Shown here in pieces: positions 48,562 to 62,387 of a stretch of DNA of 64,000 nt; the stretch's first letter is position 1, and each line of letters starts with the position of its first letter. The stretch lies in NCBI RefSeq assembly GCF_000012985.1, contig NC_007645.1, positions 2,572,501 to 2,636,500 on the forward strand, written 5' to 3'. Both the position numbers and the translations under genes were made by a program. This DNA comes from Hahella chejuensis KCTC 2396. Lineage in GTDB: Bacteria > Pseudomonadota > Gammaproteobacteria > Pseudomonadales > Oleiphilaceae. The notes below the pieces were generated by a model, which was given only the letters and a program-made list of their open reading frames with translations, made no database searches and was not told where the DNA came from.

Positions 48562-49212
48562 ATGTCTATGAATCAGTGTTATCTAAAATCGGGAGTGCGT
48601 CTGCTAGGTGCGGTGGCGTTGTGTTTATCCAGTACGTCTATGGCGCAGGAGGGAGCGATTGATCCAGCGCTCGCTGTGGCCACCCTGGGCGGCAAGGCGT
48701 TGCGGGGTGAATATGGCTTTGTCGGTCAGTTCTCGTGTGTGCAGACGCCATTGCAGCCTCCGCCTGCGACAGGGTTTGATCCGGAGCCTCCTCACAGCCT
48801 GCTGGTGGAAGGCGAGGCGGTTTCTGTAGCGGGCTATGGCGTGATGACGTTTTCTCCAACTGGGACAGTGGACTTAAGCGTCACTGGCTCGCTGATCGGT
48901 CTGGATCAAACCGCAACGGGAGATGCGCCTGTGACGGCCCGCATTGCTGGGAACTGTCCTGGAGGGCGTTATCAGGTGTTGGACAACCACCGCCTGTTCC
49001 TGGAATTTCCCAACTGTCAGGAGAGTGTCCCTGGCTTTAGCGCCAGCGGCGGGCCGTTGCGATTCGAAGGGTTAATGGCGCGGGACCGGCGTTGGATCAA
49101 ACTGGCGATGGTGGATGGCGGCGTGCAAACCTACGACATTGCCATTCCCGGGTATCCTGAACTACAGAACCAACGCGCCTGCATACAAACCTTTGTTATG
49201 GACAGGATGTAA
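48562..49212 (+). CDS. Secreted hypothetical protein
   Basis: A 216-residue protein with a Sec signal peptide (about 1-28, VALCLSSTSMAQ, cut after AMA-like site) and a mature domain of beta character. It contains GEYGFVGQFSCVQTPLQPPP and VTGSLIGLDQTATGDAPVTARIAGNCPGGRYQV and four Cys that could form disulfides. I do not recognise a family. ATG 48562 follows GAGGGAGTTT. It is transcribed alone, ending at a hairpin near 49322. Probably periplasmic or exported. Confidence 0.6.
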   Translation: MSMNQCYLKSGVRLLGAVALCLSSTSMAQEGAIDPALAVATLGGKALRGEYGFVGQFSCVQTPLQPPPATGFDPEPPHSLLVEGEAVSVAGYGVMTFSPTGTVDLSVTGSLIGLDQTATGDAPVTARIAGNCPGGRYQVLDNHRLFLEFPNCQESVPGFSASGGPLRFEGLMARDRRWIKLAMVDGGVQTYDIAIPGYPELQNQRACIQTFVMDRM

Positions 49213-49321
49213 TTTTGTCGATGGTTCTCTTCACAAGCTGAGGCGTTCGGGATCGTTGCCGAGAGGTGGGGATTCCGCATTCTTTTTACATTTTTTATTT
49301 TTATTTCAATAATTTGAGCTA

Positions 49322-49346
49322 AACTCAGCCACTAAGGTTGAGTTTT
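49322..49346 (+). terminator. Terminator after secreted hypothetical gene
   Basis: AACTCAGCC-ACTAA-GGTTGAGTT (one G-T pair) followed by TTTTG. The 110 bases before it are AT-rich and without a gene. Confidence 0.6.
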
Positions 49347-49462
49347 GCTGCGTATTTCCGAAACGCTGCGGCCGATTCTGAAAATCAGGTATGGCGACTC
49401 GGCCGCTGGATTTGATTCACCGCACAGACAGCGAATAACAAACAACAATATAGCCATCGTTT

Positions 49463-49999
49463 ATGCTTTCGGGTTTAGGGAAACATTTTTGCAGGCTGTT
49501 TCTAATCCTGGCCGCTGTCCTGGGGACGTGGGAGCAGGCGTACGCCCGTTCCGAATACGAAATCAAAGCCGCGTACCTTTACAACTTCATTAAGTTCGTC
49601 ACCTGGACTGACGCGGAGGCGACGGCTTCCGCCATCGATATCTGCGTCTATGGAGAGGACCCTTTCAAGGAAATCCTCCATCCGCTTAAGTCTCTGACCG
49701 CTCACGGAAAACCCATCAATCTGTTGTATCCCGACAAGGCGGCGGACGCCGCTGTCTGCGAAGTGCTGTTCATCAGTCGGGAAGAGAAGCGGCAGCTATC
49801 GACGATTCTCTCCCAGGTGGGGCGGAATGTTTTAACCGTAAGCGATATGAAGGATTTCGCCAGCTCCGACGGCATGATCGGGTTTGTGACCGTCGGCAAT
49901 GTGATCCGGTTTGAAATAAATTTATCCAGCGCCCGCGAGGCCGGTCTCGACATCAGCTCCAAGCTGCTCGAACTGGCTCTGGACGTGATCAAGAAGTAG
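49463..49999 (+). CDS. YfiR family periplasmic protein (DUF4154)
   Basis: A 178-residue DUF4154/YfiR protein with a signal peptide (about 10-29). The family core is complete: YEIKAAYLYNFIKFVTWT, ICVYGEDPF, CEVLFISREEKRQL, VLTVSDMKDFASSDGMIGFVTVGNVIRFEIN. In Pseudomonas YfiR is a periplasmic inhibitor of the CHASE8-GGDEF cyclase YfiN. Here the next gene, in the same direction, encodes a kinase with a YfiN-like sensor region. The pair probably forms a periplasmic switch. Confidence 0.9.
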   Translation: MLSGLGKHFCRLFLILAAVLGTWEQAYARSEYEIKAAYLYNFIKFVTWTDAEATASAIDICVYGEDPFKEILHPLKSLTAHGKPINLLYPDKAADAAVCEVLFISREEKRQLSTILSQVGRNVLTVSDMKDFASSDGMIGFVTVGNVIRFEINLSSAREAGLDISSKLLELALDVIKK

Positions 50000-50003
50000 G
50001 TAG

Positions 50004-51482
50004 GTGCAGCAGAACATGAAATGGTCTCAGATGCCGATAAAGCACAAGCTGATCATGATGACGTTGTTCACCAGCGTGATCGGCATTGTGGTGGTCAGCC
50101 TGAGTTTCATCTGGTACGAAAACCTGACTTACAAAGACCAGCTGAAACAGGAAATGAACGTCATTGGCAAAATCCTGGCGGACCGCAGCAACGCCGCTCT
50201 GGTGTTCAGCGACACGGCGCAATTGCAGGATAACGTCAACAGCCTGAAGTTGCGTCAGTCTATCGAACTGTCCTGTATCTATGACGCCATGGGGGCGCCG
50301 CTGAGCAGTTTCTCCCGGCGGCAGGACTTGCAATGTCCCCTGGCGCCCGCCGCCCATGAAGGGGAGTTCACCAGCAGCTATTTTCATCTGACCCAGGCCA
50401 TCGAGCTGGATGGCGAAAGCATCGGCAAACTGTATATCCGCTCTTCTTTGCAGGAGTTAGTGGGGCATTTACAAAACTATATCGCTACCGCCGCGATTGT
50501 GTCCGCACTGGTGGTGATGGCGTTGTTGCTGGTGTCCAGCATGCTGCAGCGCATCATCTCCACGCCGCTGGTGCATTTGACGGAAACCGCCACCCGCATC
50601 GCCAGAGTGAAGGATTACAGTCTGCGGGCGGAACAGGAAAGTGAGGACGAAATCGGACAGTTGGTGGTGGCTTTTAACTCCATGCTGGACACCATTGAAG
50701 AGCAGAACGCGCAGATTCTGCATAATTACGAGAACCTGGAGAAAATCGTGGCGCAGAGAACGGCGGAGCTGCGTTCCGCTAACAAAGAGCTGGAGGCGTT
50801 CAGCTACTCGGTCTCCCACGATTTGCGTCAGCCCCTGCGCGCCATCGACGGTTTCAGCGACGCGCTGCTGGAGGACTGTTCGGATCAGCTTGACGAAGTC
50901 GCCATGGATTACCTCAACCGTGTGCGCGCCGCCAGTCAGCGCATGGGGCGTCTGATCGACAGCATGCTTACTTTGTCCCGGGTGACCCGTTATAAGGTGG
51001 AGAGCAAAGAGGTGAATCTGAGCAACCTGGCGGCGACTATCTTTGAAGCCTTGCAGGCGGATCAACCCGAACGGCATGTAGAAGCGGTCATTCAACCGGG
51101 CTTAATGACTCAGGGGGATGAGAATCTGCTTGGCGTGGCGCTTTCCAATCTGATTGGCAACGCCTGGAAATATTCCTCGAAACTTTCCCACGCGAGAATT
51201 GAATTCGGAGCCATTGACAAAGACGGCGAGCGGATATTTTATGTCAAAGACAATGGCGCGGGGTTTGATATGAAGTATGCGGACAAGCTGTTCGTGGCGT
51301 TTAACCGGTTGCACTCCCCAGCGGAGTTTGAGGGCAGCGGCATCGGGCTGGCGACGGTGTCCCGTGTGATAAGCCGTCATGGCGGTCGGATATGGGCGGA
51401 ATCTCAACCCGGAGAAGGCAGCGTCTTCTACTTCACATTGAATGATGCGGCGGTGGATGCGCACGAGACTGGGGCGCGCTGA
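50004..51482 (+). CDS. Sensor histidine kinase with CHASE8-like periplasmic domain, HAMP, HisKA, HATPase
   Basis: A 492-residue inner-membrane kinase. Two membrane segments (about 14-36 and 157-178) flank a periplasmic domain whose ADRSNAALVFSDTAQLQDNV and IELSCIYDAMGAPL resemble the CHASE8 domain of YfiN. HAMP follows (about 180-235), then HisKA (SYSVSHDLRQPLRAIDGFS) and a phytochrome-type HATPase (NLIGNAWKYSSK, DNGAGFDMKYADKLFVAF, GSGIGLATVSRVI). Start GTG 50004 or ATG 50016. It overlaps the YfiR operon and is followed by two response-regulator genes. Confidence 0.88.
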   Translation: MQQNMKWSQMPIKHKLIMMTLFTSVIGIVVVSLSFIWYENLTYKDQLKQEMNVIGKILADRSNAALVFSDTAQLQDNVNSLKLRQSIELSCIYDAMGAPLSSFSRRQDLQCPLAPAAHEGEFTSSYFHLTQAIELDGESIGKLYIRSSLQELVGHLQNYIATAAIVSALVVMALLLVSSMLQRIISTPLVHLTETATRIARVKDYSLRAEQESEDEIGQLVVAFNSMLDTIEEQNAQILHNYENLEKIVAQRTAELRSANKELEAFSYSVSHDLRQPLRAIDGFSDALLEDCSDQLDEVAMDYLNRVRAASQRMGRLIDSMLTLSRVTRYKVESKEVNLSNLAATIFEALQADQPERHVEAVIQPGLMTQGDENLLGVALSNLIGNAWKYSSKLSHARIEFGAIDKDGERIFYVKDNGAGFDMKYADKLFVAFNRLHSPAEFEGSGIGLATVSRVISRHGGRIWAESQPGEGSVFYFTLNDAAVDAHETGAR

Positions 51483-51555
51483 ATTGTCAGCGTGTAAATT
51501 TGTATAAACTAAAATAATAGGCCTAGACTTGGTTAGTGGACTGAGAGAATCGCTG

Positions 51556-52002
51556 ATGCAACAGTGCATGATATTACTGGTTGAGGATAACCCTGATGAT
51601 GAGGCGTTGGCGTTAAGAGCATTAAAGAAAGCTAACCCGAAAACACAGGTGGTGGTGGCGCGGGATGGCCAGCAGGCCCTGGATTTTGTGTTTGGTGAAG
51701 GAGACTATCAGGGACGCAACGTCGCTGAGCAGCCTGTAGTGATTTTTCTCGACATGAAGTTACCCAAGCTGAATGGATTGGATGTGCTGAGAAATATTCG
51801 GAACGACCAAAGGACCTGTTTGTTGCCAGTCGTGATTCTGACCTCGTCGGATGAGTCCAGCGACATCAAGGAAGCCTATCGCCTGGGCGCGAACAGCTAT
51901 ATCAACAAGCCCGTTAACTTTACCGAGTTTTCCCGTCAGATGAACCTGATGGGAGAATACTGGTTGGACATCAATCGGCCTCCGTTATGCAAGCTTCAGT
52001 GA
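51556..52002 (+). CDS. Single-domain response regulator (Rcp1-like)
   Basis: A 148-residue receiver of the Rcp1 type. Phospho-acceptor Asp is in FLDMKLPKLNGLDVLRNIR, with acidic pocket VEDNPDDEAL and Lys in INKPVNFTEF. There is no output domain. Such regulators are typical partners of phytochrome-type kinases, like the one 70 bases upstream. I start at ATG 51556 rather than the extended frame. Confidence 0.9.
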   Translation: MQQCMILLVEDNPDDEALALRALKKANPKTQVVVARDGQQALDFVFGEGDYQGRNVAEQPVVIFLDMKLPKLNGLDVLRNIRNDQRTCLLPVVILTSSDESSDIKEAYRLGANSYINKPVNFTEFSRQMNLMGEYWLDINRPPLCKLQ

Positions 52003-52013
52003 CCGGAGCGACT

Positions 52014-53693
52014 ATGCGACAGGGTTTGCGTCTTCTGGTGGTGGATGATTCGGAAGACGACGCCATCCTGTTGATCAGGGAGTTGCGCAAAGGCGGCATG
52101 CTGCCCAACTATACCCGCGTGGACAATGAGCATGACATGCGCAAGATGCTCAGCGCTCAGCAGTGGGACATCATCATCACCGATCACAATATGCCCGGAT
52201 TCTCCTCCGAAGAAGCCCTGGCGGTCGTGCGCGAGGCGGAGCTGGACGTGCCTGTGATCATCGTTTCCGGCACCATTGGCGAAGATGTCGCCGTGCGGGC
52301 GATGAAAGCCGGGGCCCATGACTACATCATGAAGGACAACCTGGCGCGCCTGCTGCCGGCTATCCAACGGGAGCTGAAAGAGGCCACGGTTCGCGACGCC
52401 CGCAAACGCGCGGAACGTACGCTGCATCATATGGCTTACCACGACAGCCTGACTGATCTGGTGAACCGTCGTGAATTCGAACGCCGTCTGAAAAGCGCGC
52501 TCAACAGCAGCAAAGAGCGCGGCCTGACTCACATGCTGCTGTACCTGGATCTGGATCAGTTCAAGATCATCAACGACACCTGTGGACACGTCGCCGGGGA
52601 CGAACTGCTCAAGCAATTGGCCATACTGCTGTCCAAACATATTCGCGAAAGCGATACGCTGGCCCGTTTGGGCGGCGATGAATTCGGAATACTTTTGGAG
52701 AGTTGTGCGGAGCGCCGCGCCATTCAACTGGCGCAAGAGCTGAACAGTGAAGTGCGGAACTTTCGCTTCGTCTGGCAGCAGAAGCCGTTCACCATCAGTT
52801 TGAGTATCGGCATTGTCGCCGTCACCAGCGAATACGGTTCCGGCGCGGAGATTCTCAGTCACGCCGACATCGCGTGTTACGCCGCCAAGGACAAGGGGCG
52901 CAATACGATTCAGGTATATCAAAGCGATGACGTGGAAATGATGCGTCGTCGCACGGAAATGCAGTGGATCAGCCGTATCCGTATCGCGCTGGAGGAAAAT
53001 CGTTTTTTCCTGTATCAACAGCCCATGGAGCGCATTGGCCCGGATCGTGGCGCGGGCTTGCATACCGAGTTTCTATTACGTTTGCGGGAAGGCGACGAGG
53101 TCATTCCGCCGGGCGCTTTTATTCCCGCCGCTGAACGTTACAGCCTGATGCCGCTGATTGACCGCAGGGTTATCGAGTTAGTGTTCCAGTACCTCGCCGA
53201 AAGCGGCAAAGGGATGGCGGACAAAGGCGCCTATTTCATCAATCTGTCAGGCGCCTCGTTAAGCGATGACAAGGTGTTCGAAGATATTCGTAAAAATCTC
53301 AGAAAATACAAAATCCGCCCGGAGCGAATCTGCTTTGAGATAACGGAGACCGCCGCCATCGCCCACTTAGCGGAAACCGTGGAGTTTATCCGTGAGATCA
53401 GGGAAGAGGGCTTCAAGTTCGCGTTGGATGACTTCGGCTGCGGCATGAGTTCCTTCTCCTATTTAAAAACCATTCCGGTGGATTATCTGAAAATTGACGG
53501 CAGCTTTGTGCGCAACATGCTGTCCGATCCGATTGACGTGGGGATCGTCGAAGCCTGCAACCGTATTGGACATGCGGCGGGACTGACGACCATCGCCGAG
53601 TTTGTGGAAAACGAGCAGATTAAGGAAAAATTGATCGAAATAGGCGTGGACTATGCGCAAGGTTTCGCTGTCAGTAAACCCAAGCCGTTGTAA
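52014..53693 (+). CDS. Response regulator with GGDEF and EAL domains
   Basis: A 559-residue REC-GGDEF-EAL protein controlling c-di-GMP. Receiver at about 5-125 (VVDDSEDDAILL, ITDHNMPGFSSEEAL). GGDEF at about 145-305 with an intact RLGGDEFG signature. EAL at about 315-555: the eponymous motif reads TEFLLR (E-F-L instead of E-A-L), while LDDFGCGMSSFSYLK, DYLKIDGSFV and AQGFAVSKP are present, so phosphodiesterase activity is plausible. Start ATG 52014 follows CGGAGCGACT. Confidence 0.9.
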   Translation: MRQGLRLLVVDDSEDDAILLIRELRKGGMLPNYTRVDNEHDMRKMLSAQQWDIIITDHNMPGFSSEEALAVVREAELDVPVIIVSGTIGEDVAVRAMKAGAHDYIMKDNLARLLPAIQRELKEATVRDARKRAERTLHHMAYHDSLTDLVNRREFERRLKSALNSSKERGLTHMLLYLDLDQFKIINDTCGHVAGDELLKQLAILLSKHIRESDTLARLGGDEFGILLESCAERRAIQLAQELNSEVRNFRFVWQQKPFTISLSIGIVAVTSEYGSGAEILSHADIACYAAKDKGRNTIQVYQSDDVEMMRRRTEMQWISRIRIALEENRFFLYQQPMERIGPDRGAGLHTEFLLRLREGDEVIPPGAFIPAAERYSLMPLIDRRVIELVFQYLAESGKGMADKGAYFINLSGASLSDDKVFEDIRKNLRKYKIRPERICFEITETAAIAHLAETVEFIREIREEGFKFALDDFGCGMSSFSYLKTIPVDYLKIDGSFVRNMLSDPIDVGIVEACNRIGHAAGLTTIAEFVENEQIKEKLIEIGVDYAQGFAVSKPKPL

Positions 53694-53829
53694 TTAATAA
53701 AATTTTCTCCGCCATCTTTTCGCACAGATTAAATCCTGCTGCTATGCTTAGCTAAGACGCGCCCGGCTGGCTGTAGCTTATGGTCGAGGCGTTATTCCGT
53801 CCGCAGCAATCAAACGCGATACGACTCAT

Positions 53830-55911
53830 ATGATTACAACAACTAGAAGGTTTTGCGCGTTAAGTCTGGCTCTCGCCGCCTCGGCAGGGTACGCCACAGA
53901 CGATAATCTCTTTGAAGACAGCCTCTGGGCGCTATCCCCCGAAGAACTGGGACAAATCCGCGTCACCAGCATCGCCTCGGGCACCATCACCCCTTTGGAC
54001 AAGGCCGCCGCCGTCACCACGGTCATCACCGCGGAAGACATCGCGGCTATGGGGGCGACGGATATCGATGAAGTGTTGGAGACGGTGCCGGGTTTGCATG
54101 TCGGTAGGTCTTTTCAAGCCTATTTTCCGCTTTATACATTTCGAGGCATATCCGGGTCGGATTACAACCCTCAGGCGCTATTGTTGATTAACGGCTCCCC
54201 GCTCACCACCCTGGCTTTCGGAAATCGCTACACCATATGGGGCGGAATGCCGGTCAAGTCCATCAGTCGCATTGAAGTAATCAGAGGTCCGGGCTCCGCT
54301 TTATACGGCGCCGACGCCTTTGCGGGAGTCATTAACGTCATTACAAAAACCGCCAGCGAAATGGAAGGAACACTGACGGGAACGCGCGTAGGCAGTTTTG
54401 ATACTTATTCCGCATGGATGCTGCATGGGGATCGCATTGGCGATCTTGAGCTGGGCGTCACCTTTGAGTATATGGATACAAGGGGGCAGAAAGAGGAAGT
54501 AAAAGAAGACTTTATGGCATTGCTGGCGCCTGATGACTCTCTGGCTCCGGGGGAAGTCAATCTGGGACGCCGCCAGGCGGAACTCCACATGGATATGGCA
54601 TACAAGGAGGTAACGGTCAGAGTAGGTTACCAGGGGCGTTACGGCGTTGAAACGGGCGCAGGCGTCGCGCAGGCGCTGGACCCTGAAGGCGAATACGCCA
54701 GCGATCGCCTGACCTTGGAGTTTCTGCATACCAATCAGGACTGGTTTGAAAACTGGGAAATCTCCACTCAGCTGACCTATTTCTTCGGCAGACAGAAGCC
54801 CACCGAAACCTCTGTAATTTTCCCTTCCACTTTCGGCGGGGCCTTCCCGGACAGGGTATTGGCCGAGCCAGGCTATAAAGAAGAGCACGCAAGAATTCAG
54901 TTGTCCTCTATTTTCAGAGGCTGGAAAGATCATCGTATCCGCATGGGCATAGGCTATTTCTGGGGCGATCTCTACGAAACGACGGAAAAGAAAAACTTTC
55001 TTTTCGGTTCTCGAGGGATAGAACCAAATCCAGGTGGATTTGAAGACTTTTCGGACAGTAATAACGTGTGGCTTCCCGAGAAAGATCGGACCAGCTATTT
55101 CATATTTCTGCAGGACGAATGGCAGTTCACTCAGAATTGGCAACTGACGTCTGGCGTCAGATATGACCACTATTCCGATTTTGGCGATACCGTCAACCCA
55201 AGGATAGCCTTGGTCTGGGCGTCTACGGATACCCTTACCACCAAGCTGCTTTATGGGCGCGCTTTCCGCGCGCCGTCCTTCGTAGAGCTGTATGCAATCT
55301 CTAATCCTGTCACTTTGGGCAATCCTGATTTAGATCCTGAAACCATAGATAGTTATGAGTTTGCCGTCAGCTATCAACCTACCGCAAAACTGCAATACAG
55401 TGGAAACTTGTTTTACTACAAGATTGAAGACTTCATTAACTTCGAAGGTGGAAAATTAGCTAATTCCAATAGCCGTAAAGGGCGAGGCTGGGAGTTTGAA
55501 GTCAGTTACGCTGTTTCCGACGAGCTGAAAATGACGGCGAACTACGCCTACCAGCGCGCTACAGATGAAGAAACAGGCAAAGACGTGGGGGATGCGCCGA
55601 ACTACCAGGCCTATGGGCGTATTGATTACAAGATTGTCCCCAACACGAGCGTATCCACCCAGATTAACTGGATTGGCGAACAGAAGAGGGCGGATGGAGA
55701 CGGTAGAGATCCTGTCTCTGATTACGCCACGGTGGACTTCACTGTGAGACGCAAGACATTGGAGGATCGGCTGGAGATGGCGCTTTCCATCCGCAATGTG
55801 TTTGATCGGGAAGCCTACGCGCCCAGCACCTCCCGGCCAATGGTGGCGATTCCAGGAGACCTGCCCCTGGAGGGGCGCAGCCTGTATGGAGAGGTCTCCT
55901 ATCGATTTTAG
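53830..55911 (+). CDS. TonB-dependent outer-membrane receptor
   Basis: A 693-residue TonB-dependent receptor with a signal peptide (about 1-22), a plug (about 45-165: VTTVITAEDIAAMGATDIDEVLETVPGLHV, RIEVIRGPGSALYGADAFAGVINVITK) and a beta-barrel ending in EVSYRF. Ligand is unknown; the plug is of the siderophore/vitamin class. It is downstream of YfiR, kinase and regulator genes on the same strand, about 135 bases apart. TonB receptors next to YfiR-family proteins are recurrent and may feed ligand status to the signalling system. Confidence 0.92.
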   Translation: MITTTRRFCALSLALAASAGYATDDNLFEDSLWALSPEELGQIRVTSIASGTITPLDKAAAVTTVITAEDIAAMGATDIDEVLETVPGLHVGRSFQAYFPLYTFRGISGSDYNPQALLLINGSPLTTLAFGNRYTIWGGMPVKSISRIEVIRGPGSALYGADAFAGVINVITKTASEMEGTLTGTRVGSFDTYSAWMLHGDRIGDLELGVTFEYMDTRGQKEEVKEDFMALLAPDDSLAPGEVNLGRRQAELHMDMAYKEVTVRVGYQGRYGVETGAGVAQALDPEGEYASDRLTLEFLHTNQDWFENWEISTQLTYFFGRQKPTETSVIFPSTFGGAFPDRVLAEPGYKEEHARIQLSSIFRGWKDHRIRMGIGYFWGDLYETTEKKNFLFGSRGIEPNPGGFEDFSDSNNVWLPEKDRTSYFIFLQDEWQFTQNWQLTSGVRYDHYSDFGDTVNPRIALVWASTDTLTTKLLYGRAFRAPSFVELYAISNPVTLGNPDLDPETIDSYEFAVSYQPTAKLQYSGNLFYYKIEDFINFEGGKLANSNSRKGRGWEFEVSYAVSDELKMTANYAYQRATDEETGKDVGDAPNYQAYGRIDYKIVPNTSVSTQINWIGEQKRADGDGRDPVSDYATVDFTVRRKTLEDRLEMALSIRNVFDREAYAPSTSRPMVAIPGDLPLEGRSLYGEVSYRF

Positions 55912-55922
55912 GAAAGAAAGGA

Positions 55923-56678
55923 TTATTGGGCGGTATAGCCGCCATCAATAGAAATTGTCTGTCCGTTTAAATAAGACGCGGAATCCGACAGCATCCAACA
56001 TACCGCTTCTGCGACTTCCTGTTGCGTACCCAGACGTCCCTGCGGGTGCAGAGATTGAGCGAAAGCCATGACCTCGGGATTGCTCAAAGCCTGCTCGTTG
56101 CCGGGAGTGGGAATCCAGCCGGGACATATCGCATTGATGCGAATATTGCGCGCGGCGTATTCTAGAGACGCGGCTTTTGTAAGACCAATGATGGCGTGCT
56201 TGGAGGCGACATACGCCGCCAATCCCATGCCCGTGCCTACCAGGCCATAAATGGACGACATATTTACAATCGCCCCGGACTTATTGCTTAACAGGGCCGG
56301 GATCTGGTGTTTCATGCACAACCAGGCGCCTTTGGTATTGATGCTGAAGACTCTGTCCCATTCCTGTTCGGACAACTCTGTCAACGGTCCGACGGGTTCC
56401 GCCGCTCCCGCATTGTTAAAAGCGCCGTCCAACTTACCGAACGTCTCAATAATTTGAGCGAGCGCGTTTTTGATATCGCTTTCCGAAGAAACGTCCGCGG
56501 GGATGCTGATGGCCTGTCCCCCGGCTTCAGTGATATGTCGCACCGTGTCTTCGGACTCTCTCGATCTGCGTGCGATAACCGCTACTTTGGCGCCGTAGTT
56601 CGCCAGCTTGATTGCCGTTGTCCTTCCGATACCGGAACTGGCGCCCGTGACCATCACCACTTTTCCATCCAGCTTCAT
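55923..56678 (-). CDS. Short-chain dehydrogenase/reductase
   Basis: A 251-residue SDR. NAD(P) loop TGASSGIG (about 12-19), NNAG (about 90), catalytic Ser region MSSIYG, YVASK (Tyr-x3-Lys, about 157-161) and a C-terminal DGGYTAQ. Classical SDR; substrate unknown. It lies 56 bases downstream of the citrate-synthase-like/ThDP operon, in the same direction, so it may belong to the same pathway. Confidence 0.9.
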   Translation of the reverse strand: MKLDGKVVMVTGASSGIGRTTAIKLANYGAKVAVIARRSRESEDTVRHITEAGGQAISIPADVSSESDIKNALAQIIETFGKLDGAFNNAGAAEPVGPLTELSEQEWDRVFSINTKGAWLCMKHQIPALLSNKSGAIVNMSSIYGLVGTGMGLAAYVASKHAIIGLTKAASLEYAARNIRINAICPGWIPTPGNEQALSNPEVMAFAQSLHPQGRLGTQQEVAEAVCWMLSDSASYLNGQTISIDGGYTAQ

Positions 56679-56734
56679 GGAGTAACCCTCTTAAATGTAT
56701 AAATGAGTCTATTTGCGTCTAATGGAGGTTGGCC

Positions 56735-57526
56735 TCACCAACTACGCCTCTCCGGCCCGGAATACTGAATGGACTCACAGCGCATGGGGAAAACGCTGCC
56801 CTCGGGCTTGGCCGCGCCGTCGAGATAGCAGGGGACCATGCCGGCGATAAAGCAGGGCGTCAGATAAAGCTGGTACTCCTCCGGCGACATGCCGAAATCC
56901 GCGCCGATGGCTGCAGCCAGGGCGGCGACGTTGATCGTCAGGCGCTTGTTCTTTTTGAGATAATGGTAGATCTCCAGCGCCAGAGTGAAGTGAGGGCCAT
57001 CAGCGAAGCCCAGGTCACGGGCCTTTTTGACCAGATGCAATACGCGTTCATCCAGACGCGCCAAGGGGCGGCCGTAGCCGTAGATGACGCGGTATTTTTT
57101 CAACGCAGCGTTGATCAGGCCCGATAGTTCCTCGCCGGCGTCCAGGGCTTTGCGGGTGCGCTGCAGAAAGTCGATGGCGCGGCGGTCCGGTCTTCTGCCG
57201 TAAATGGACGCTTCGGAAATGGACAGTCCGCTCATCAAAGATAGCGACGGCGTGCTGCGCACGTTGCCAGCCAGTTCTGCGACATGGTTGGGCCAGATGC
57301 TCGGGTCCGGGTAGCTGGTGCATACCCAGATGTAATTCAGCATGCGCATCTGTTCCGGTGTGTAGAATTTGCCGGTGATGGAGTAGAGATAAAGTGAAAA
57401 CCAGTCGCGCTCACTTAACTCCTGATGCAGGTCTTTACCGCGAAACACCACTCGTTCGCACAAAAACGCTTTGCCCATCGCGGTTTCGTGGGCGGTTTCC
57501 TGTTGGCGCAGATGTTTGTTGCTCAT
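56735..57526 (-). CDS. Citrate-synthase-fold protein B with altered active site
   Basis: A 263-residue protein with the C-terminal half of a citrate synthase / citryl-CoA lyase fold. By-eye alignment points are YGYGRPLARLDERV (normally GFGHRVY-like, with catalytic His), LTINVAALAAAIGADFGMSPEEYQLYLTPCFIAGM (normally NVDF-like, with catalytic Asp) and SISEASIYGRRPDRRAIDF (normally LHGGA-like). All three catalytic positions seem changed: Tyr, Arg and Ala. It overlaps the next gene by four bases (ATGA). It may be an obligate heteromer with protein A; citrate formation is unlikely. Confidence 0.7.
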   Translation of the reverse strand: MSNKHLRQQETAHETAMGKAFLCERVVFRGKDLHQELSERDWFSLYLYSITGKFYTPEQMRMLNYIWVCTSYPDPSIWPNHVAELAGNVRSTPSLSLMSGLSISEASIYGRRPDRRAIDFLQRTRKALDAGEELSGLINAALKKYRVIYGYGRPLARLDERVLHLVKKARDLGFADGPHFTLALEIYHYLKKNKRLTINVAALAAAIGADFGMSPEEYQLYLTPCFIAGMVPCYLDGAAKPEGSVFPMRCESIQYSGPERRSW

Positions 57527-58353
57527 AGCCCAAGCTCCTCTGCATTGGGTAGTTCGAAGGGGCCGGGGTCATCCGTCAACTGGATGTGCTCTCCGTAGAA
57601 GGGGAACATTTTCCAACCCAGATCTCGTTGCTCAATGGCGTGTGCGGCGGCGCCGGGTAAACGCAGCATCAAGTACAACATGACCGCGGCGTGCTCGTTC
57701 ATAGCCAGATCGTGCAATGCTGCGGCGGCCACACCGGACAGTGACAGCGGCGCGTCTGCGGCGGCTTCCAGTTCCTGGCGATGTTGCGCAAGCCAGCGTA
57801 CGGTAATAGCGCAAGGAATTTCCGCCAGCGCTTCCAGCACCTGACGCACTGGCTTTGGACAGCTCTCGCCGTTGGGATCGAAACCGGGGGCGTGCTCCAT
57901 GGGCCGCCATATATCCTCCCGTGTATCGCTGACCGGGGAGGGGAGGCGGGCTCGCCATTGCGCCATATCGGTTCCGCATTCCCGCCAAAGCTGCATCAAA
58001 ATGTAGACTTCATGTCCGCCGCCATACTGGCCCGCACCGACGGCCAGGGACGCCATCAGCGAAGCGGCGTGCGGACAGCCGCCAACGCCGCCGTTCATCG
58101 CCGCGCGCACGCTGGCCTCGCGGGGACCTGGGTTGGCGAGGGCGATCGCCAGTTTTTCCAGTAATCGCGCCTGATCCGTGTTGGGTTTTTCGCCTCTGAA
58201 CAACAGATACAGGTATTCGAACCAGCTCGCCCTGGTCAGGATGTCGCCGTAGACATCGTAGCCGTAGCAAAGGGCGGAGTGCGCGGCGAAAGGGTTGTCG
58301 GCTTCTGGTTCTTCAGACCAGACTTTCGTCTGGTATCCGTACTTGCTGCTCAT
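57523..58353 (-). CDS. Citrate-synthase-fold protein A with altered active site
   Basis: A 276-residue citrate-synthase-like protein. CYGYDVYGDILTRASWFEYLYLLFRGEKP matches the conserved helix and CoA-side loop. CPHAASLMASLAVGAGQYGGGHEV stands where LHGGA-type sequence is expected, so His becomes Tyr. The regions for the other catalytic His and Asp read PGFDPNGESCPKP and LSLSGVAAAAL, again altered. Start ATG 58353 follows GGAGGCAATC and overlaps the ThDP gene by 41 bases. The tandem pair with protein B looks like a split or duplicated, non-canonical citrate synthase family. Confidence 0.7.
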   Translation of the reverse strand: MSSKYGYQTKVWSEEPEADNPFAAHSALCYGYDVYGDILTRASWFEYLYLLFRGEKPNTDQARLLEKLAIALANPGPREASVRAAMNGGVGGCPHAASLMASLAVGAGQYGGGHEVYILMQLWRECGTDMAQWRARLPSPVSDTREDIWRPMEHAPGFDPNGESCPKPVRQVLEALAEIPCAITVRWLAQHRQELEAAADAPLSLSGVAAAALHDLAMNEHAAVMLYLMLRLPGAAAHAIEQRDLGWKMFPFYGEHIQLTDDPGPFELPNAEELGL

Positions 58354-60067
58354 GATTGCCTCCTGTCAGAACTTTGGTGCGTTGGCGCATGGGGGGAACT
58401 TGCTCGCTGTCGACGACCACATCCAGAACGAATGGGCCGGGTTTGGAGAAAAGGCTGTCGACGCCGATGTCATCCAGCTCTTTGAGCCGGGTGATGCGTT
58501 GCGAGGGTAAGCCCGCCGCTTTGGCCATGGCGGCGAAATCCACCTGCGGCAGTCGATTGGCGATATCCTCCGCCCGGCCCAGACGTTGGCCGTGTTTGAT
58601 CATACCCAGGTGGCTGTCGTTCAGAACGATGAACAGAATGTTCAAATCCAGCTCCCGCGCGACAGTGATCTCCTGACCGCTCATCAGCATGCTGCCGTCG
58701 CCGGTGAAACAAATGACAGGCGTATCCGGTCTGGCGAGCGCCATGCCGACCGCGGCTCCGATAGCCCAGCCCATGGTCGCGAATCCCATGCCTATGTGGA
58801 ACAGTTTAGTCGAATCTGACAAGGGCGGATTGGTGCGCCAGTAATGCACGCCCCACAGGAAACTATTGCCGGTATCCATCAATACGGGTGTGTTGCGAGG
58901 GCAAGCCTGGCTTAGCGCCCAATACAGCGCCTGCGGTTTGACAGGCGCTTCCACGTCAAGGCAGGCTTCTTTGTCTGCGTATTTGACGTGTTTGGGGAAG
59001 CCGTCAGCGCCGGGCAAGTACTTCTGTTTACGCGGCGCTGCATGTTTCAGGTATTTTGCGAAGGGCTCCAGCAGTAAACGTGGCGAGCCCAGTATCGACA
59101 GCCTCGACATGACCGAACGACTGAGATGGTCGGGGTTGCCGGACAAGTGGATCAAGCGATTGGAGAAGATCGCGTTGGGGTCCCAGCCGCCGGTCGTGAC
59201 TTCATCCAGCGCGGAGCCAATGACGATGACGCGCTCCGCATTGTCGGGATGCAAGGCGTCGCGAGCGCTCTCATGCCCGCCAAGACCGAAAACGCCTCTA
59301 TATAAAGGATGATATTCCGACACCAGTCCTTTGCCCATGGGCGTAGTGACGATCAACCAGTTGCGGGATTCCGCCAGGGCGAGCAGGGGCTCCATGGCGC
59401 CTGCGCAGCCTTCTCCTATTACCAGAGTGGCCTTCTGCACATAGGCGAGTTCTTTCAGTAATCGATGCACGGACTCGGCGCTGGGCACGACTTCATGGTT
59501 TATAAACGCACGCATGTTTAAGTTGCCCGCCGGATCGGGAGATTTCGCGCGCATAATGTCCAGAGGAACGCTCAAATGCACCGGGCCTGGCTGGTTACTG
59601 AGCGCGTAGCCAATGGCCATCAACAGCTTGTGCTCCAACTGGGCGGGATGCGACACCAGGGTGTTGAAACGGGTGCAGCTATCAAAGATGCTGACGGTGT
59701 TGATGCCTGTGCAGGAGCCTTCCTGAAAAGCGCCTAAACCGAAACGCTCGATAGACGGCTGCGCGGTTATCACCAGCATGGGGATGCCGTCGGCATAGGC
59801 GTTGGCCACGCCGGTCAGCAGGTTGGTGGCGCCAGGGCCTGAAGTGGAAATGCACACCCCAAGTTTGCCTGTCGCTCTTGCATACCCGTCCGCCATGAAG
59901 GCCGCTCCGGATTCGTGTCTCGCCAACACCGCCTTTGGTCCGCCCCGGCGCTCGCTGCGGGCGAGGGCGTTATAAAGTGGTTCAATACTGCCTCCTGGCA
60001 CACCGAATACGTACTTCACTCCCAATCGTTCCAGATAGTGGAGTATCAAATCACCATTCTCGATCAT
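58313..60067 (-). CDS. Thiamine-diphosphate-dependent enzyme, acetolactate-synthase-like
   Basis: A 584-residue ThDP enzyme. N-terminal Pyr domain with VFGVPGGSIEPLYNAL and catalytic Glu in ARHESGAAFMADGYARATG; central domain; C-terminal PP domain with GDGSMLMSGQEI...FIVLND, the metal/ThDP motif. ALS, benzaldehyde lyase or decarboxylase activity cannot be distinguished by eye. Start ATG 60067 (MIENGDLILHY) after AAAAGGTATCAAAGC; the longer frame from 60166 is unlikely. It leads a coupled operon with the two citrate-synthase-like proteins. Confidence 0.85.
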   Translation of the reverse strand: MIENGDLILHYLERLGVKYVFGVPGGSIEPLYNALARSERRGGPKAVLARHESGAAFMADGYARATGKLGVCISTSGPGATNLLTGVANAYADGIPMLVITAQPSIERFGLGAFQEGSCTGINTVSIFDSCTRFNTLVSHPAQLEHKLLMAIGYALSNQPGPVHLSVPLDIMRAKSPDPAGNLNMRAFINHEVVPSAESVHRLLKELAYVQKATLVIGEGCAGAMEPLLALAESRNWLIVTTPMGKGLVSEYHPLYRGVFGLGGHESARDALHPDNAERVIVIGSALDEVTTGGWDPNAIFSNRLIHLSGNPDHLSRSVMSRLSILGSPRLLLEPFAKYLKHAAPRKQKYLPGADGFPKHVKYADKEACLDVEAPVKPQALYWALSQACPRNTPVLMDTGNSFLWGVHYWRTNPPLSDSTKLFHIGMGFATMGWAIGAAVGMALARPDTPVICFTGDGSMLMSGQEITVARELDLNILFIVLNDSHLGMIKHGQRLGRAEDIANRLPQVDFAAMAKAAGLPSQRITRLKELDDIGVDSLFSKPGPFVLDVVVDSEQVPPMRQRTKVLTGGNHEQQVRIPDESLV

Positions 60068-60601
60068 GCTTTGATACCTTTTCGGACATGTATAAATTTT
60101 GAGCGCGAATTCTTGGGTAAGATGACCGGAAAAGATAGGGTCTAAATGTAAAGCATTGAAAAACAAGAAGAATACGGACTAGTCTCATCGGACGATTGTT
60201 GCTTTTTTGGAGAAAAATGGCCCCATATAGATAAAATGTAATTACTTTTCGGTCTGGGCCATAGGAAACATGGAGCAACACTGACGTTAAGATGAGGGCA
60301 AGCGCTGGGGGAACGCCCTCACACGGAGGGCGACTCCCAGCTACGCCTTATCGCTAACCTACCAGGGGTTTTATGTGAACCAGAAGTGGCGCTTGGGTAT
60401 GACATGAACAAAAATCGCCAGCGGCCGTGAGAAGATCTCAAGCTTTGGGACAACAAATGATGGATTTTTTAGAGGCAGGCTGGTGTCGACACCTAGCCAA
60501 CGCTTTGAGGGTGGAAAAAATTGCGTTGATACTTTGCCGAATTTTGGTTGAGCGAAATAAATTTCGAAACGCTGTAACAGGCTGATTTATAAGGATAAAT
60601 T
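60068..60601. other. Intergenic region upstream of ThDP gene with structured hairpin
   Basis: About 530 bases without a supported gene. Bases 60305-60340 fold as CTGGG...CGCCCTC-ACACG-GAGGGCG...CCCAG, a nested GC-rich hairpin. A 12-bp perfect palindrome GGTGTCGACACC lies near 60482-60493. The promoter of the ThDP operon is presumably near 60100-60250. Functions not known. Confidence 0.45.
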
Positions 60602-60689
60602 TGGTGCCCGGGGCCGGGGTCGAACCGGCACGGTATCAAATACCGAGGGATTTTAAGTCCCTTGCGTCTACCAATTTCGCCACCCGGGC
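60602..60689 (-). tRNA. tRNA-Leu(UAA)
   Basis: 88-nt tRNA with a long variable arm. Acceptor GCCCGGG/CCCGGGC, anticodon loop CTTAAAA (TAA), T-loop GGTTCGACC, and encoded CCA. Third in the Gly-Cys-Leu cluster, as in E. coli glyW-cysT-leuZ. Confidence 0.95.
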
Positions 60690-60715
60690 GAGGGAGGCAT
60701 TTGCCGGAGAAAACA

Positions 60716-60789
60716 TGGAGGCGCGGGTCGGAATCGAACCGGCGTACACGGAGTTGCAGTCCGCTGCATGACCACTCTGCCACCGCGCC
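60716..60789 (-). tRNA. tRNA-Cys(GCA)
   Basis: 74-nt tRNA. Acceptor GGCGCGG/CCGCGCC, anticodon loop CTGCAAC (GCA), U73 discriminator characteristic of tRNA-Cys, encoded CCA. Confidence 0.96.
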
Positions 60790-60816
60790 TATAATCAAGA
60801 CTTCTAGAGCTAAAAA

Positions 60817-60833
60817 CCCCGAGCTTGTCGGGG
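60817..60833 (-). terminator. Hairpin between tRNA-Gly and tRNA-Cys, terminator-like
   Basis: CCCCGA-GCTTG-TCGGGG flanked by AAA and TTT, followed on the minus strand by TTTTTA. It lies inside the presumed tRNA operon. Confidence 0.6.
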
Positions 60834-60845
60834 TTTCGGAAATCT

Positions 60846-60921
<76 letters not shown>

Positions 60922-61422: not shown

Positions 61423-62387
61423 GTAACTATCTCATAACCCCCACTTGAATTTTTTAACCTTTGCCGGTTCACTGAGGCGCCACTTCTCTGATAAGGAAAC
61501 GTCATGTCACAAAAGGACTCAAGCGCCCCGTCCAGTAAATCGAAACCCTGGACACTCTATGGGAAGTACCGGACGAGCTATGGCTACGAATCGAACCCAT
61601 TTTAAAAGAAGACTGGCAACCCAGCGCCAAGGGTGGCCGCCCCATCGGCAACTGGAGGGGCTATTTGAACGGGATTATTTTTCGGATGCGTTCAGGCTGT
61701 CAGTGGAACCAGTTGCCCCGCCGATTTGGGGATGACGCCACGGTCCATCGCTGGTTTCAGCGCTGGAGTAAAAACGGCGTGATGGAGAAGATCTGGGCGA
61801 GTCTATTGCGAGACTGCCAGGAACTGGAAGGGGTGGACTGGGAATGGCAAAGTGCGGACGGCTGGCTGGGGAAAGCCCGCTTTGGGGGGGGAGAATGTGG
61901 GGCCGAACCCGACAGACCGAGGCAAGAAGGGAACCAAGAAAAGCCTGCTGGTGGAAGCCGAGGGAGGCCCCTTGGGACTCGTCATCGCCGGAGCCAATGT
62001 CAACGACCATAAGCTGCTGGAAGCGACGCTGGAGTCGATTGTGGTAGAGCGTCCGGCTCCAACGGTGGAGGCGCGGCAGCATTTATGCCTGGATAAGGGG
62101 TATGACAATGTGGCGAGCGAAGACGTGGCAGCCCGGCATGACTACATACCGCATATCTGCCGAATTGGCGAGGAGGCGCAGCCAGCGGACCGTCATCCAA
62201 GTGGAAAGCCCCGGCGTTGGGTAGTGGAGCGCACGTTTGGTTGGCTGTCTAAGTGCCGTGCGTTACTGATTCGCTATGACAAAAAGGACAGCAACTATCT
62301 GGGATTGCTGCAATTGGCATGTGGTCTGTTATGGTTTCGGCGGATGTGGCGGCTACAGGGGCGTCAATGAGGTTATGAGATAGTTAC
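61423..62387 (+). mobile_element. IS5-family insertion sequence with TAA target duplication
   Basis: A 965-bp element bounded by perfect 17-bp inverted repeats, GTAACTATCTCATAACC at 61423-61439 and its complement at 62371-62387. Direct repeats TAA flank it at 61420-61422 and 62388-62390. IS5-family groups that duplicate TNA are known, which supports the assignment made from the transposase. The ends look intact, so it could move if transposase were supplied. Confidence 0.9.
61504..62370 (+). pseudogene. IS5-family DDE transposase, two frameshifts
   Basis: Starts ATG 61504 (MSQKDSSAPSSKSK) after AAGGAAACGTC. The protein reads correctly only if the ribosome changes frame twice. Near 61562 (TATGGGAAG) one G seems missing, since the -1 frame gives GEVPDELWLRIEPILKEDW. 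At 61889-61896 a run of eight G appears to have one G too many; seven restores GGENVGPNPTDRGKKGTKKSLL. Downstream, ANVNDHKLLEATL, LDKGYDN and ERTFGWLSKCRALLIRYDKK are intact up to the stop at 62370. Both indels are in G-runs and cancel in frame, so this is most likely an inactive or error-affected copy; programmed frameshifting is less likely. Confidence 0.82.

Follow-up and report, generated by a model that had tools for sequence, protein, structure and literature searches.

The stretch of the Hahella chejuensis KCTC 2396 genome described here raises the question of what is made, and for what use, by three coupled genes that encode a thiamine diphosphate (ThDP) enzyme and two citrate-synthase-type proteins, A and B. 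The genome (G000) comprises 7,215,267 bases in a single contig, C1, and the window is the whole 64,000-nucleotide stretch C1:2572501-2636500, in which positions are counted from its first letter. The trio consists of the following genes.

58313-60067, minus strand: ThDP enzyme of the acetolactate synthase / CybE-BbmA type, 584 aa, with the Pfam TPP_enzyme N, M and C domains
57523-58353, minus strand: A, citrate-synthase-type protein and likely partner subunit, 276 aa, with the catalytic triad lost and catalytic columns not conserved
56735-57526, minus strand: B, citrate-synthase-type protein, 263 aa, with the triad replaced by W78, N80, Y109, R153, P154, R161, N199 and C233

The genes of the ThDP enzyme and A overlap by 41 bp (58313-58353) and those of A and B by 4 bp (57523-57526), with coordinates and strand as the initial annotation had them. 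We favor, with a probability of about 0.55, the reading that the ThDP enzyme and A-B together produce a small ligand derived from an acyloin, which is recognized by the adjacent TonB-dependent receptor (TBDR) and controls cyclic di-GMP (c-di-GMP).

The family membership of A and B was assessed with profile models. B passes the Pfam Citrate_synt cut-off of 27 bits with 29.5 bits, and A, with 18.9 bits, falls below it. Neither comes near the NCBIfam cut-offs for citryl-CoA lyase (PRK06224 included), the best scores being 43.5 against 193 for B and 47.8 against 245 for A. The profiles of A and B themselves align with an hhalign probability of 98.9% across 254 columns. AlphaFold models, computed from alignments of four sequences (the window and locus L027 of Hahella sp. 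HN01), reached a mean pLDDT of 48.0 for B and 33.3 for A and were not used. An intact citrate synthase is also encoded in the same genome.

The catalytic triad of citrate synthase is His274/His320/Asp375 in the numbering of the pig enzyme. When aligned by profile to canonical citryl-CoA lyases, window A has Tyr110 at His274, Pro160 at His320 and Ser206 at Asp375, while window B has Arg153 at His320 and Ala201 at Asp375. The correspondence of B Tyr109 to His274 is less sure: phmmer places Tyr109-Gly110 on the His-Gly of citrate synthases 5csc and 8gr8, ungapped up to there, whereas gapped hhalign alignments shift Tyr109 by one column with L093 and by four with L064 and L066. Residues 100-120 of window B hold no histidine, so there is none whichever register is taken. 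The initial annotation had claimed, by eye, that both proteins lack the triad, with Tyr in place of His274, Asp or Arg in place of His320, and Ser or Ala in place of Asp375. The absence of an intact triad and the Ser and Ala assignments are borne out, and neither protein passes as a citrate synthase, by its triad, or as a citryl-CoA lyase, by the curated cut-offs. Tyr at the first place holds for the two window proteins and is conserved in B only; at the second, Arg is right for B, but A aligns Pro160, Asp159 being one column off.

These replacements were followed through 66 loci, namely the window, 16 from relatives, 9 from a phylum sample and 40 newly fetched. The counts leave out the weak B matches L091-L093, the canonical lyase G050/L064 and G498 (fragments); the near-duplicate G004 (L027) was used only in pairwise locus comparison. 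Equivalents of His320 and Asp375 are found in 0/66 B proteins, and the Tyr109 column holds 63 Y and 2 F among 65. In the A family, one of 63 proteins has His in the His320 column and none has Asp in the Asp375 column; the His274 column is mixed (L20, H15, Y12, A5, N4 and others, n=63), so that 15 A proteins carry His there. Judged from these alignments, the loss of the triad is family-wide for B and nearly so for A at two of the three places. What B keeps instead is near-invariant: W78 and N80 in 65/65, R153 in 66/66, P154 in 65/66, R161 in 66/66, and N199 and C233 in 65/65. Arg161 aligns with the arginine of the DPR motif, a substrate-binding residue, and could hold a carboxylate. The columns G76, R78, G108, G157, G234 and H238 of A are kept in 62 or 63 of 63 proteins. 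Because the residue set of B is near-invariant while the His274 column of A varies, our own reading is that B may be an active enzyme with new chemistry and A its partner. Among the excluded proteins, L093 looks canonical by eye, and L091:8954-9760 and L092:9153-9953 belong to a citryl-CoA-lyase-like family without His274 and Asp375 equivalents in which His320 is kept (by eye).

The ThDP enzyme has intact motifs, with the catalytic Glu52 in 56/56 and the GDG of the GDG...ND motif in 54/56 sequences of the locus-set alignment. Its closest solved relatives are BbmA (8x3x, 8xod) and CsmA (8x3z), the top three of 157, which rank before the acetolactate synthases. An anabolic acetolactate synthase was rejected, since the enzyme scores 335 bits against the TIGR00118 cut-off of 538 and is below the cut-offs of the other listed equivalogs as well. 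In PMC12395478, CsmA is termed a CybE homolog, together with one printed as BpmA; CybE couples two 2-oxo acids, and CybE-type products are alpha-hydroxy-beta-keto acids. CybF, described as a 3-oxoacyl-acyl carrier protein synthase, forms a butenolide from the CybE product and an acyl-CoA, according to PMC8777810. The systems of CybE/CybF (cyanobacterin, a furanolide), BbmA and CsmA resemble the trio in having a ThDP enzyme of the same type, whose alpha-hydroxy-beta-keto acid is in the known system taken further by a dedicated partner (PMC12395478 and PMC8777810). They differ in that the partner here is a triad-less citrate-synthase-type pair and that a TBDR and c-di-GMP signaling are linked to the genes. 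By analogy with CybE/CybF, it is plausible that A-B acts on a ThDP-derived intermediate. A furanolide cluster proper was considered and rejected: the frames beside the window ThDP gene are A, B and a short-chain dehydrogenase/reductase (SDR), with no CybF-type 3-oxoacyl synthase, a family that was not searched elsewhere. The same genome also encodes a ThDP paralog, 47% identical, at L065:8698-10536 (C1:1408697-1410535), with no A or B match beside it; its gene converges on a siderophore-type TBDR gene near Fhu-like uptake genes (labels by eye).

The trio was then searched for in other genomes, as had been proposed initially. B is present in 18/58 relatives, and a close ThDP homolog (E<=1e-95, a threshold picked to split the trio clade from ordinary acetolactate synthases) is present in those same 18; in G047 the two lie on separate contigs of a broken assembly. 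A is found in 19/58, the extra one, G050, being the canonical lyase. In the phylum sample, 13/398 genomes match B at E<=1e-10, nine of them strongly and three weakly in addition to this genome, and in the class sample 43/369 genomes, this one included, match at E<=1e-20, in 30/272 genera. Plasmid records gave no B match at 1e-10. Over the 66 loci the ThDP gene is present in 56 and A in 63 under strict assignment (37/40 of the new loci), looser labeling letting a B frame pass as A (64/66).

The partners of the trio in the window, those on the plus strand facing it, are the following genes.

55923-56678, minus strand: SDR-family reductase, accessory, 251 aa, with an unrelated SDR at this place in G001
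53830-55911, plus strand: TBDR, 693 aa, Pfam Plug and barrel, with residues from about 90 onward in an exchanged block
51987-53693, plus strand: receiver-GGDEF-EAL protein (c-di-GMP metabolism), 568 aa, Pfam
51529-52002, plus strand: single-domain response regulator, 157 aa, Pfam
50004-51482, plus strand: CHASE8-HAMP histidine kinase, 492 aa, Pfam
49463-49999, plus strand: YfiR/HmsC-like protein (DUF4154), 178 aa, Pfam

The whole genome (7.2 Mb) encodes 12 TBDRs and 2 YfiRs, and both YfiRs have a TBDR no more than about 5 kb away. In order to measure the linkage, component models were built on the first 26 loci and run on all 66, the 40 others serving as a test set. There, a TBDR was found in 33, the ThDP enzyme in 31, a periplasmic binding protein (PBP) or YfiR in 28, a sensor or output protein in 34 and A in 37 (strict); in the 26 test loci of at least 17 kb the figures were 23 for TBDR, 22 for ThDP, 21 for PBP or YfiR and 23 for sensor/output. 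Twenty control regions, 300 kb off on long contigs of 12 genomes (5/12 from the model-building set), held no TBDR and no PBP/YfiR, with kinases in 6, GGDEF/EAL proteins in 2 and sensor/output proteins in 7. Proteins of c-di-GMP metabolism are found in 37/66 trio stretches as against 2/20 controls. In one genus (L082, L085, L088, L090) the order TBDR-A-B-ThDP-PBP-hybrid kinase is read from one strand with the longest frames touching or overlapping; Pfam supports the PBP in L082 and L088 and the kinase in L082. These recurring TBDR, periplasmic binding/YfiR, sensor kinase and c-di-GMP partners, which the initial annotation had missed, make it more likely that the trio serves to produce a small molecule that is sensed than that its role is metabolic.

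Other genera show other sensors. In L083:2654-7969, L086:9392-14575 and L089:10325-15517 (one genus), a Ser/Thr kinase-AAA-GAF-histidine kinase of 1727-1771 aa adjoins B and no TBDR was found; L083 and L086 also have a LuxR-type response regulator, and L084, from another family, holds only the kinase-AAA part of that protein. Kinases and receivers without a TBDR were found in L140 and L144. Among 397 unlabelled frames of at least 120 aa around the 66 loci, no family occurs in more than 6 loci, and six occur in 5 or 6: a methyl-accepting chemotaxis protein (MCP), CheR, CheW, DUF1249, an ABC ATPase with a TOBE domain (5/66) and a double ABC-ATPase (ABC-F-like). MCP, CheR and CheW come largely from the same loci (L118, L120, L121, L127-L129), and their recurrence may be shared synteny; a second MCP family is found in L113, L114 and L116. 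In L138 (G679) a single A-B pair is surrounded by two ThDP and two TBDR genes, which may reflect two products or a duplication.

The comparison of near relatives shows which genes change together. Between the window and G001 (L048), DNA identity amounts to 92% in 49007-54101 and to 91% in 56735-60207, and between these flanks a single 122-base piece matches, at 77%. The differing segment is as follows.

54102-56734, no strand: block holding most of the TBDR gene and the SDR gene, differing between the window and G001, with flanks of 91-92% identical DNA

The block sets in after roughly the first 90 residues of the TBDR and stops at the end of B (56735). The TBDRs are 60% identical and the SDRs 28% (unrelated), as against 97.6% for the ThDP enzyme and 97.6% for the histidine kinase, and G001 has no better TBDR match elsewhere in its genome. 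A deeper case is G002 (L049), in which the contiguous SDR (28%), B (28%), A (34%) and TBDR (39%) are distant from those of the window; the corresponding values for G003/G006 are 80/75% for B, 68/67% for A and 70/51% for the TBDR. The G002 ThDP enzyme (75%; G003/G006 74/75), kinase (59%; 62/62) and GGDEF-EAL protein (67%; 74/74) are near genus level. From these identity patterns in G001 and G002, the product-forming or tailoring genes change with the receptor, and the ThDP enzyme and the relay stay.

Protein distances were compared in the 40 loci with all four proteins, one being kept per pair with ThDP enzymes more than 90% identical. A and B co-diverge, with a correlation of 0.914, and follow the ThDP distances at 0.32 (A) and 0.35 (B). 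The TBDR distances correlate with those of A/B at 0.73-0.75, and the partial correlation with the ThDP effect removed is 0.74, a value reached in 0/2000 permutations. The earlier idea of a heteromeric, non-citrate enzyme gains support from the A-B co-divergence, the failed citrate synthase and lyase tests and the intact ThDP motifs. Its other component, the adjacent SDR as core reductase, does not: 10/66 loci (by-eye count) have an SDR within 2.8 kb, the near relative G001 has an unrelated one in its place, and a fixed pathway step was rejected on this ground.

In the favored make-and-sense circuit, the ThDP enzyme would join two 2-oxo acids into an alpha-hydroxy-beta-keto acid, as its closest solved relatives suggest. 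A and B would form a heteromer with a remodeled active site in B and with A as a partner that is either non-catalytic or part of a composite site. This heteromer would turn the labile alpha-hydroxy-beta-keto acid into a small, stable product, perhaps using an acyl-CoA as well. Enolization of the acyl-CoA by the usual route is unlikely, because the Asp375 equivalent is absent. The AMP-binding ligase that follows B in L084 would fit the use of an acyl-CoA. In some species the SDR would tailor the product. Single trio loci also hold a sulfotransferase (L059:10597-11895), a carbamoyltransferase (L061:1918-3681) and a methyltransferase (L083:901-1818), which fits variable tailoring. The product would then leave the cell and be recognized by the neighboring TBDR. 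Together with YfiR, or elsewhere a periplasmic ABC_sub_bind protein, the receptor would signal its state to the histidine kinase, receiver and GGDEF-EAL protein, and in this way the ligand would set c-di-GMP. The gene linkage, the replaced catalytic residues, the co-divergence of A and B and the exchange of receptor and SDR as a block are observed.

Several points weigh against this circuit. The chemistry of every step, the secretion and the identity of the TBDR ligand with the trio product are what we infer, and a TBDR with sensors would also suit the uptake and sensing of a nutrient or metal complex from outside. A clean block exchange was seen in one near-identical pair and a deeper exchange in one more pair, and the rule that SDR type follows receptor type was rejected, as L050 has the second SDR type, yet its TBDR is 70% identical to that of the window and 58% to that of L048. 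The TBDR also tracks the ThDP enzyme (0.63; partial 0.61, 0/2000), so the distance test does not point to A/B specifically, and common ancestry by itself yields such correlations. No TBDR was found in 13/66 loci (L053, L061, L083, L084, L086, L089, L115, L121, L123, L125, L140, L144, L147); several of these end at contig ends, but L086, L089, L125, L140 and L147 are long. The ThDP gene was not found in 10/66 and A not in 3/66 (strict), L125 has the trio without any recognized partner, and L147 has B alone. Finally, no exporter gene occurs in more than a few of the 66 loci (ABC ATPase-TOBE, 5/66).

Alternatively, A-B could be a non-enzymatic pair, binding a ligand or serving as a scaffold, by which the ThDP enzyme is regulated in the manner of the small subunits of acetohydroxyacid synthases. 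The tight coupling of the genes, the lost triad in window A and B and the non-conserved catalytic columns of A would suit such a role. However, the near-invariant polar set of B (W78, N80, Y109, R153, R161, C233) suggests catalysis or very specific binding, and the poor tracking of ThDP distances by A and B (0.32-0.35) is odd for a dedicated regulatory subunit; we consider this explanation unlikely.

It is likewise improbable that the trio makes a metallophore, a small alpha-hydroxy-carboxylate chelator whose metal complex would be imported by the TBDR while the kinase reports metal supply. It is well established that TBDRs usually import metal chelates, and the 47% ThDP paralog adjoins a siderophore-type TBDR and Fhu-like genes, as labeled by eye; siderophore types are also known for the block exchange of receptor and tailoring genes. 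Nevertheless, no inner-membrane importer recurs near the trio, the transporter-like families in at least 5/66 loci being the ABC-F-like protein and the ABC ATPase-TOBE (5). Iron regulation of the locus was rejected for want of a notable Fur-like site: against a Fur-box consensus, the best matches are 9/19 upstream of the window TBDR and 11/19 upstream of the ThDP gene, and the comparison siderophore-type TBDR (L065) has a site of 13/19. The frequency of c-di-GMP proteins (37/66 stretches against 2/20 controls) also speaks against a metal-uptake role.

Quite improbable is a catabolic module in which the TBDR imports a compound that is cleaved by the ThDP enzyme and a citrate-synthase-type lyase and sensed by the kinase, for although ThDP and citryl-CoA-lyase-type enzymes also work in the cleaving direction and a PBP with a TBDR suits nutrient sensing, no other catabolic family recurs near the trio (397 frames, 66 loci), B is without His320 and Asp375 in 66/66 and without His at the Tyr109 column in 65/65, the genuine lyase locus L064 has CoA-transferase and TctA neighbors and an intact triad (by eye), and the nearest relatives of the ThDP enzyme are synthases.

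The surroundings upstream of the ThDP gene comprise three tRNA genes (Leu, Cys, Gly) at 60602-60921 and, past this cluster, two overlapping frames at 61665-62370, the second of which is a DDE transposase (Pfam). At gathering thresholds, the RNA families found in the window are tRNAs only, and promoter and terminator scans of 53600-60650 gave no excess over shuffles.

Compared with known systems, A and B share sequence homology and the short 260-280 aa form with citryl-CoA lyase and citrate synthase (PF00285, PRK06224, Aquifex citryl-CoA lyase 6hxp), but His320 and Asp375 are gone in every B and, bar one His, in A, and His274 is gone in B and in 48/63 A proteins. The make-and-sense circuit resembles LuxPQ-type autoinducer circuits in that synthase genes, a periplasmic binding protein and a hybrid histidine kinase are adjacent in some genomes; it differs by an outer-membrane TBDR in the trio unit, a frequent c-di-GMP output and unrelated synthase chemistry. 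The exchange of a receptor gene with a tailoring gene resembles the TBDR-based self-recognition of pyoverdine types (FpvA) and TBDR signaling; unlike there, no nonribosomal peptide synthetase, sigma/anti-sigma pair or importer was seen in the window unit, which has a kinase and a GGDEF-EAL protein instead. Among the PMC matches listed, no report names the trio or the circuit. To the extent searched, the parts are of known kinds, and the combination and the triad-less A-B pair have not been described.

A bolder and tentative proposal, possible though we lean against it, is that this is a widespread bacterial communication system with an acyloin-type pheromone made by the ThDP enzyme and the triad-less heteromer, a TBDR of exchangeable specificity, a c-di-GMP readout and perhaps chemotaxis in some genera, the receptor and tailoring genes swapping as a cassette in the manner of pherotypes. 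With B found in 43/369 genomes of the class sample, such a system would be common and yet have no known product. Because a candidate-ligand gene set adjoins the receptor, the question of TBDR-kinase sensing would be directly testable. If the make-and-sense circuit is true, signal-like molecules would gain a further route of synthesis, the citrate-synthase framework would have found a new use despite the loss of its triad, and a TBDR would sense a self-made ligand to set c-di-GMP.

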